DNA of 64,000 nucleotides, taken from positions 2,511,501-2,575,500 of the forward strand of contig OZ038473.1 in NCBI GenBank assembly GCA_964036295.1, read 5' to 3'. The notes under the pieces are model-generated. The model saw nothing but the letters and a program-made list of their open reading frames with translations, was not told the origin of the DNA and ran no database searches. Position numbers and translations under genes: made by a program. Position 1 is the first letter of the stretch; each line of letters starts with the position of its first letter. This stretch comes from Plumapathes pennacea (lineage: Eukaryota; Cnidaria; Anthozoa; Antipatharia; Myriopathidae). Below, piece after piece: positions 18,036 to 20,587 of this stretch.

Positions 18036-20587
18036 ATGTCGCGATATTCTCGGCCTCCAAACAGCTCACTGTACGTGAGAAACCTTCATCGCGACACAAG
18101 GTAAGTTTGAGACAGTATTACAGTGAACTGTACGGAGAAATTCTAACTGATACCGTTTGCAAATCAGACCCGAAGACTTGAGACGAATGTTTGGCAAATA
18201 TGGGCCCATCAGCGATGTCTACATTCCACTCGATTACTACACCAGAGAACCTCGAGGCTTTGCTTATGTACAATATCCTTTGATTTGTTTCTGTGCTGTC
18301 ATGTGCGGGTCAGTTCCTCGAGTGCTTTCCCTTTCGTGTTGTGAGAGCTTTTGCATGCATGCTTTTCTCCGGGCGTAAGGTAAATAGATCTAGAAGTAGT
18401 TGCTTTACTAAAACGTCTGGACATCTAAAAGTCGGCCAAAATTGGGTGAATTTTTATGAAATATTTTTGGTATCGGGTATCAAGCGACTAACTTTCTGGT
18501 TCTGATTTCTGCTATTGTCATACAAAATGGCTGTTGACGGCCAGTTCTAGCACATGACTTCGTAGTTTTGCAGAATTAAGAGACTGGGATAAGTCCTTCA
18601 ATCGAATTGGCGTTTAAATCCGTCAAAATGCAGGCAAGATATCATTGTTCAACTGGACTTTGGGAGCTGACTCGTGCATTAGCCCTTGCTGGTTTTCTTT
18701 TGTCATTTTATAGAAACCCTCATTCTCAATCTCTGTCTGTTGTTGTGTCACAGGTGTGTGTTAAATTCACCAAAAGACAAAGTCAAAGACAAAAGAACCA
18801 AAGAAAAGGCAAAGTTTAAGACAAATTAAAGGGGCACAAAGTTAAAAAGTTGCTAAAGACCAAAGATCAAGCTGGCAATACAAGTGTGCTTGCATCCAAG
18901 GTGTAAAAATGATAAGAAGACACACCACAAGCAAGCTGGGAGGTTTAGAAAGAGATTGATGAAAGCATGGTCGGCAACACTAGGGTTCTAAGCAAAGACC
19001 AAAGCCTTAGTAAGAACCAAGTTTGCAGCCCCGCGTAAGACAAAGCTTCAAGTATCAAGCAAGGCTAGCGCCCTTCAAAGCCAAGTACAAAGAAGGAAAA
19101 CTAAAAAGTTTCACAGTAAAGAACAAGCAAAATCCCAGGGATTTTGTAAGTAGCTAAAGTATGTTCAGTGATGGTTGACCACCAGTATTTTTACCATGTA
19201 TCATAACTCTGTGATTCTTTCTCATGTTGTGTAAGGCTTTTATGCATTCCGGTTTTTGAGGTCGATAAACATCCATCTGCCTTCTCACCTAAATGTTTTT
19301 TTAAAACTCAAATCGGCAATACTTCCTGGCCAGAATGGCCTCTGAAAACAAGCCTTTGATAAACTTTGCCCTCCTTATAGTACAACCACTAACAATCCCA
19401 CAGAGGCAGCTCATGCAAACTGAGCAACACAGGACAGGGTAAAGATGAGTCTAAGACCCTTAACCCTGGCTACATTTGAAGATATTCGAGATGCGGAGGA
19501 TGCACTATACTACCTTGACCGGACCATTTTGATCAATCGTGAGCTGGAAGTTCAGTTTGCAGAGGGAGACCGGAAAAGTAAGCAAGCGTCAGCATACCTG
19601 GTTAGAGTGTCAGGTGGCGGAGTGGTTAGATTGCTACAGATCCTCTCCAATAAGGCTCAGTTTTGATTCCCAGCTGGGATCTGATCCCTGTCCACTGCCG
19701 TCCAAGTGTAGTATTAGATATTCAAAAAAAGAATTGCACATTTTTTTTGTGAGGGTACAAATTTTCTTTTGCAGAGATCAGGTTGCTACAGTATGATGAA
19801 AGGTGTGATGTTTCATTATTTTCTTTTCTCCAGCACCTTCTATGATGCGTGGTAAAGAGAAAACTGAAGGTTCATACGGTGGTCGACGAAGGGATGACTT
19901 CAGAGGAGATGGATACAGGTATGTTCCTTCAGTGTCAATGTGGCAACATAACCATTACTATGAGCTAAGTTATTGTTAAAATTTACCTTGGACATATCAC
20001 TGGGGTCCTCTTTAGCATACCATTTTTGTTTTTAGTTCCAGGCGCCGCTCTAGGAGCCGTAGCCCAAGGTAAGTTTTTTCAGAATGTTACATTCATTCTA
20101 GACTTTACACAACCTGGCCAGACCCTCTCACCACAGCTCAAACAATGTCAGGTTTGATGGAGTGACATTTTTAAACTGGCAAACAGCACTTGTGACTTAG
20201 GCTTCTTTTGGTTTTCATTCTAGAATCATACTTTGCAGAAGGTGCAAAGGTTATGTTCCAGATTTTAGACAGGAAATGTTGTTTATGAAAGTGGTCATCG
20301 GCTTTTATCCTTCCTAAGCTTTTCATCTTAAAATTATTTGCAGACGAAGGCGCCACCGTTCACGGTCAAAGTCTCGCTCGCACTCACCAGTGCGTCGCCG
20401 AAGCCATGATAGCCGACGAGAGAGGCGTGAGAAAGAGCATGAGAAGGAGTATCATTCACGCTCTCGTTCAAAGTCTCGATCTCAAACCCCGGAACAGTCG
20501 AGATCTCCATCACCAGCACATTCTGGATCAGTGCAGTACAGCGACAAGGAGGAAGATGTCGCTAGCCGCTCTCCCACACCAGAGTGA
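18036..20587 (+). CDS. SRSF10: SR splicing factor SRSF10-like, six exons, 211 residues
   Basis: RNA-binding splicing regulator of the SRSF10/SRSF12 group. Coding exons: 18036-18100, 18168-18272, 19474-19577, 19834-19918, 20036-20068 and 20344-20587; all phases agree. The N-terminus [16 protein letters not shown] and the run [39 protein letters not shown] follow the human RRM closely. RNP1 (RGFAYVQF) is split by an AT-AC intron. Residues from about 105 are Arg/Ser-rich with RSRSRS and RSRSKSRS repeats, shorter than in human SRSF10. The second intron (18273-19473) begins ATATCCTTT and ends in AC, a U12-type intron. The gene probably regulates itself through that intron (see findings). Confidence 0.93.
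18380..18385 (+). promoter_or_regulatory. Alternative major-class donor GTAAAT inside the AT-AC intron
   Basis: TAAG|GTAAAT lies 107 bases past the AT-AC donor. Reading through from the RRM exon meets an in-frame TAA at 18376-18378 just before it, so use of this donor truncates the RRM. Confidence 0.45.
18754..19145 (+). other. Candidate purine-rich cassette (poison) exon in the SRSF10 intron
   Basis: A pyrimidine-rich tract ending TTGTGTCACAG (to 18753) precedes 392 bases that are strongly A/G/C-rich and T-poor on the sense strand, followed by the consensus donor GTAAGT at 19146. It contains two AAAGACAAA words (18773-18781, 18785-18793) and several close variants (AAAGACC, AAGACAAA). It contains stop codons, so inclusion would not extend the protein. 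Its status as an exon is inference. Confidence 0.45.
19609..19690 (+). mobile_element. tRNA-derived SINE head or tRNA pseudogene
   Basis: GTCAGGTGGCGGAGTGGTTAG resembles a tRNA-Leu/Ser 5' end with an A box. About 45 bases on, GTTTTGATTCCCAGCTGGG resembles a degenerate B box. No intact cloverleaf was folded, so this is probably a SINE fragment in the third SRSF10 intron. Confidence 0.4.

Follow-up and report, generated by a model that had tools for sequence, protein, structure and literature searches.

Within a 64,000-nucleotide (nt) stretch of contig OZ038473.1 (the window, meaning the whole of the DNA analysed) lies a gene for a splicing factor of the SRSF10 type, in which the second coding exon is followed by a minor-class (U12-type) AT-AC intron that holds, nested inside it, a candidate set of major-class (U2-type) splice sites and a T-poor block of sequence. 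Taken together, these features suggest an anthozoan SRSF10 gene with a nested minor/major splicing switch, through which SRSF10 would lower its own output, a reading considered probable rather than secure. The features of the locus are as follows, with a slash marking each splice junction.

18036..18100, forward strand: coding exon 1, from the ATG at 18036 to the donor AAG/GTAAGT, placed by the conceptual coding sequence and the donor score.
18168..18272, forward strand: coding exon 2, ending ...RGFAYVQ at the minor (U12) donor.
18273..18379, forward strand: read-through extension of exon 2, which would be used only with the major donor, with an in-frame TAA at 18376-18378.
18273..19473, forward strand: U12-type AT-AC intron, with donor ATATCCTTT, branch CTTAAC at 19459-19464 and acceptor TAC/A.
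18380..18753, forward strand: candidate nested U2-type GT-AG intron, AAG/GTAAAT ... CACAG/, placed by site scores.
18754..19145, forward strand: candidate dead-end exon 3, 392 nt, with stops in all three frames.
18773-18781 and 18785-18793, forward strand: two exact AAAGACAAA words (exon nt 20-28 and 32-40), with near-copies to 18825.
19146..19151, forward strand: GTAAGT donor candidate leaving exon 3, with weak upstream context TTT.
19474..19577, forward strand: coding exon 4, reached from the minor donor, placed by the conceptual coding sequence.
19834-19918, 20042-20068 and 20344-20587, forward strand: coding exons 5-7, carrying the RS-rich (arginine/serine-rich) tail and the stop, placed by the conceptual coding sequence.

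The conceptual coding sequence formed from the six coding exons encodes 209 amino acids, with one RRM (RRM_1) followed by the RS-rich tail. Set against the human SRSF10 sequence, 71 of the 100 N-terminal residues are the same; both proteins begin with MSRY-RPPN and carry GDRKTP behind the RRM. Outside the gene, the closest match in its own genome reaches 50% identity over the RRM (15 matches, 40 candidates scored), and is one that we take to be SRSF2. Among the best 60 of 272 PDB matches, the top named ones belong to a poly(A)-binding protein and to SRSF2, while entry 2cqc_A, titled ‘arginine/serine-rich splicing factor 10’ (presumably an old name of TRA2-beta), scores 51 bits versus 83 bits for SRSF2. 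By its sequence, the gene is an SRSF10/12 orthologue.

The branch motif of the AT-AC intron lies about 10 nt before the intron’s end, and the reading frame is preserved across it (FAYVQ/FEDIRD). A minor-donor motif, [AG]TATC[CT], has its sole match in 17900-20600 at 18273, and an arrangement of tandem U12 donors, as in the U11 snRNP-binding splicing enhancer (USSE), was rejected on this ground. In the same genome, the small nuclear RNA genes of the minor spliceosome, U12, U11, U6atac and U4atac, each gave one match above the Rfam cut-offs, and the same searches gave no match in any of 14 control genomes.

Reading on past the minor donor, the frame continues for 34 codons before the TAA, and a single base (18379) separates that stop from the GT of AAG/GTAAAT, which starts at 18380. 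Using a splice-site matrix, from which all such scores given here derive, this donor scores 3.40, against 3.18 for the exon-4 donor, which the gene must use. The acceptor at 18753 (CACAG) has, at 6.36, the highest U2-type acceptor score within the AT-AC intron, the others being at 18713 (5.17) and 19380 (3.46), and acceptors as strong as 18753 number 37 in 128 kb of strand. Downstream of the donor candidate at 19146, the next strong U2-type acceptor is that of exon 5 (19833), which scores 8.04. The stop and the GT donor behind it, as well as the acceptor and GTAAGT donor bounding 392 nt, had been named in the original prediction, and are present in the sequence as described there. As a separate observation, the sequence CACAG/GTGTGT at 18753-18754 holds both the highest U2-type acceptor score and the highest donor score within the AT-AC intron, and has the shape of a recursive splice site.

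The candidate exon differs in composition from its surroundings, with 42.9% A and 17.3% T, compared with 34.8% T in the preceding 374 nt and 29.8% after it. Its limits were also recovered by a maximal-scoring T-poor segmentation of 17901-20700 that is blind to splice sites, which returned 18768-19141 in 17 of 21 settings, the other four splitting or shortening the block; this segment falls short of the proposed exon by 14 nt at its start and by 4 nt at its end. For comparison, 128 other T-poor segments scoring at least 10 were collected from both strands of the window plus 200 kb of background, excluding segments above 1500 bp (two known ones among them). Only one of these had an acceptor of at least 6.36 within 20 nt of its start; 30 carried, no more than 15 nt from the end, a donor matching 19146 in strength, three had a GTAAGT in that position, and none (0/128) had the acceptor and donor together. 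The first 120 nt of exon 3 are poorly structured, with 197 of 200 shuffles folding at least as well. Two other identities for the block were rejected: a coding cassette is ruled out by the stops in all three frames, and a transposon or dispersed repeat by a 441-base query that matched only its own locus, in a search that skips simple repeats.

Besides the two exact AAAGACAAA words, at 18773 and 18785, the block holds six copies with one mismatch, in agreement with the two words and variants originally described, and five of these eight fall in exon nt 20-72. In dinucleotide shuffles of the block, at least two exact words occurred in 14 of 5000, and at least eight near-copies in none of 5000. 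The assignment of this word to SRSF10 is borne out by the literature, the exact 9-mer being given for SRSF10 in two papers. In 12 other RRM-gene loci of the same genome, covered as stretches of about 3.2 kb rather than as whole genes, AAAGACAAA was found on the sense strand once in two and not at all in ten.

This arrangement follows that described for mammalian Srsf10, whose autoregulation was studied by Meinke et al. 2020 (eLife, PMC7244321) using mouse minigenes and human cells. In mammalian exon 2, the upstream AT-AC donor leads to exon 4 and protein, whereas use of the downstream GT donor retains a stop in exon 2 and joins it to exon 3 (PMC7244321). Exon 3 is activated by SRSF10, replacing its nt 17-60 abolishes the SRSF10-mediated response, and less minor spliceosome results in less productive Srsf10 mRNA (PMC7244321). 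Several elements of this module are found here: an SRSF10 orthologue, an AT-AC U12-type intron after coding exon 2 and, as sequence, a major 5′ splice site preceded within 50 nt by an in-frame stop, and a U2-type acceptor inside the minor intron for an alternative exon 3. The order of these elements is the same as in mammals, with the candidate exon 3 likewise a dead end, and the exact motif words, at exon nt 20-40, lie within the stretch that corresponds to the mammalian enhancer at nt 17-60. A minor donor in exon 3 was not counted as defining, since it is reported to be unused in the endogenous mouse context.

On this model, the productive route would begin with U11/U12 recognising ATATCCTTT at 18273, and exon 2 would be joined to exon 4 to give full-length protein. 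In the non-productive route, U1 would bind AAG/GTAAAT (18380) behind the in-frame stop and U2AF the acceptor at 18753, a choice that SRSF10 is proposed to favour by binding the AAAGACAAA cluster with which exon 3 opens, such that high SRSF10 would lower its own output. As exon 4 offers only an AC acceptor, exon 3 would probably exit via the GTAAGT at 19146 to the exon 5 acceptor at 19833, with 19380 a weaker candidate. With donor 19146 in use, 393 nt would separate the stop from a junction further downstream, and nonsense-mediated decay (NMD) would be expected; a terminal exon 3 would have no junction of this kind. That the block is spliced, that SRSF10 binds it, the feedback, the exit route and NMD are predictions made from the DNA, as is common descent with the mammalian switch.

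Several observations weigh against such a switch or qualify its signals. Donors matching 18380 in strength turn up roughly once in every kb of strand, and donor 19146 (TTT/GTAAGT) scores just 0.22, because of its TTT upstream context, a strength equalled at 658 sites in 128 kb of strand. The matrix is only a rough guide, giving -2.5 and 0.5 for the acceptors of exons 2 and 7 of this very gene. The cassette had been called T-poor, which its 17.3% T bears out to a moderate degree, four other forward-strand segments of the window scoring higher. In a difference from the mammalian gene, the motif here is of the AAAGACAAA type, and the GA-rich SRSF10 class ([ATG]GA[AG][AG][AG]) is not enriched in the block, with six observed versus a shuffle mean of 7.9. 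In mouse, exon 3 carries a minor donor that is seldom used as well as a dominant poly(A) site (PMC7244321), whereas the cassette here contains neither an AATAAA nor a [AG]TATC[CT] minor-donor motif; the GTAAGT at its end suggests instead onward splicing, which would make the mRNA an ordinary NMD target. Genome-wide, pairs of AAAGACAAA within 30 nt number 119, versus 102 for a reversed-word control, so that such pairs are as such hardly in excess, and many of those listed belong to a dispersed repeat. Four other AAAGACAAA-rich places that were fetched proved to be low-complexity tracts, which indicates that a AAAGACAAA cluster alone is not specific to this gene. The self-limiting switch originally proposed is partly supported: its gene identity, competing donors, candidate dead-end exon and motif cluster all match the experimentally shown mammalian mechanism, which the original prediction did not cite, while use of the cassette and SRSF10 binding would be its predicted consequences.

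Two classes of sequence met in these counts may be described in their own right. The dispersed repeat contains AAAGACAAAATCGATACCCTATTTCAGACCAAAAAGACAAA, and has many near-identical copies among the places listed, on many contigs of the same genome. The four tracts (L040 494-951, L041 305-732, L042 183-705, and L043 on the minus strand, reverse complement 167-488) are rich in CAAAGACAAAG, contain 6-9% T and span approximately 320-520 bases; the L040 tract apparently lies inside an intron, as judged by eye.

These tracts give rise to a fairly unlikely alternative, in which a low-complexity CAAAGACAAAG tract would have landed in the intron and decayed to give the block, with flanking sites that are due to chance and no stable isoform. 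In keeping with this, similar tracts exist at the four other places, which were picked for holding the word; a weak AAAGAC repeat is detected at 18773-18825 (Tandem Repeats Finder, score 37); and 20 other T-poor segments score at least 18. The bare donor-acceptor-donor triple is also ordinary: at the strengths observed, 43 of 600 background windows (1200 bases each) contained it, and five of 600 had it with a GTAAGT exit, falling to one of 600 with T as low and to none of 600 with any motif criterion tried, figures that serve as a guide and no formal test, since the background includes sequence other than introns and the feature itself supplied the thresholds. However, none of the four tracts has an acceptor of at least 6.36 within 40 nt of its 5′ end, even though a donor scoring 3.9 lies close to the 3′ end of L043, and the joint occurrence of acceptor and donor is without parallel in the 128 T-poor segments. 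Moreover, the block is less repetitive than L040, and its position and order agree with the mammalian gene.

Two further alternatives accept that the exon is real. In the first, which is rather improbable, the cassette would be an alternative 3′-terminal exon, as in mammals, ending through an ATTAAA at 18825 or a non-canonical signal and leaving donor 19146 unused; it differs from the proposed switch in the exit alone, and the probabilities assigned to the two overlap. The single ATTAAA, at exon nt 72, is consistent with this, but there is no AATAAA in 18270-19480, and the T-poor block stops 4 nt inside the GTAAGT boundary. In the second, which appears quite doubtful, a real non-productive exon would be driven by another SR or hnRNP A1-like protein, or by minor-spliceosome activity, rather than by SRSF10. 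Purine-rich enhancers do generally serve several proteins, the prospero twintron uses Hrp36/Hrp38 (PMC8329584), and productive mammalian Srsf10 output is set by the level of the minor spliceosome (PMC7244321); the enriched word, however, is the exact SRSF10 9-mer, and neither AGAA nor GGA[AG]/GAAGAA words are enriched in the block. That 18753/18754 is a recursive splice site, not an exon start, can hardly be credited: the coincidence of best acceptor and top donor at one position speaks for it, but the acceptor of the enclosing intron is of the U12 AC type, which is generally unsuited to a U2 donor, and the block that follows, with its motif cluster, would be left unexplained.

The host can be placed through its mitochondrial contig, one of 24 in the genome (C24; 17,711 bases), on which atp6, nad1-6, cob and cox1-3 were recognised by eye. 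Its only tRNAs, as found with ARAGORN using the bacterial code on two halves, are that for Met and one with anticodon tca, labelled as selenocysteine; this anticodon denotes Trp in coelenterate mitochondria. An endonuclease-like frame sits between two pieces of cox1 (by eye). The possession of tRNA-Met and tRNA-Trp only, with an endonuclease inside cox1, is a hallmark of hexacorallian anthozoans, and an anthozoan host is well supported by this contig, whether coral, sea anemone or corallimorph. The GFP family gave no match in the genome and likewise none in the 14 control genomes, so its absence is not implied. Elsewhere in the window, just upstream of the SRSF10 start, a decayed 10-base repeat, AGCATAGGGA, present approximately 14 times (17643-17785), is followed by 35 C-rich bases (17822-17856), and the minus strand at 21724-22551 carries a stop-to-stop frame of 275 codons with no Pfam match at E 0.01.

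Beyond mammalian Srsf10, the proposed switch shares features with several known systems. The Drosophila prospero twintron also has a U2-type intron inside an AT-AC intron and a purine-rich regulatory element, but yields two proteins with no off switch, is bound by hnRNP A1 homologues and belongs to a different gene (PMC8329584). The SRSF5 poison exon (Lareau and Brenner 2015, PMC4379411) is likewise a case of unproductive splicing of an SR gene retained for long across animals; it differs in being a cassette exon of another SR subfamily, with no minor intron mentioned in the portion of that paper available. In the USSE feedback of SNRNP48/RNPC3, the minor and major spliceosomes also interact to give a dead-end mRNA, but cooperate via tandem U12 donors (PMC8329584), whereas one U12 donor motif is present here. 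No cnidarian or other invertebrate SRSF10 switch was found in the open literature searched. A pattern of FAYVQ plus ATATCCTT had no match in a public genome contig collection; four viral-contig stretches in public collections carried it and were rejected, none having an SRSF10-like frame upstream.

The mechanism itself is already known from the autoregulation of mammalian Srsf10, and is likely to be the same here, in what its sequence identifies as an orthologous gene. The new element is one of evolutionary depth, as a shared architecture would span cnidarians and mammals, and the control may be very old. It may be, though this is less likely than not, that the switch, including an SRSF10-responsive exon 3, predates the cnidarian-vertebrate split, an NMD cassette exiting via GTAAGT being the original form and the polyadenylated exon 3 of mammals a later one. 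In a survey of 27 species, bony vertebrates alone were seen to have the SRp38/SRSF10 group (PMC3173450); an anthozoan orthologue with the same intron points to a gene older than that sampling suggested. Why minor introns persist is disputed, and a large survey suggests that much of their evolution may be put down to neutral processes (PMC10639083). If the proposed switch is true, the AT-AC intron would be kept in the SRSF10 gene because it carries the switch, and feedback dependent on a minor intron, in an anthozoan as well as in mammals, would provide a concrete, selected reason for its retention.
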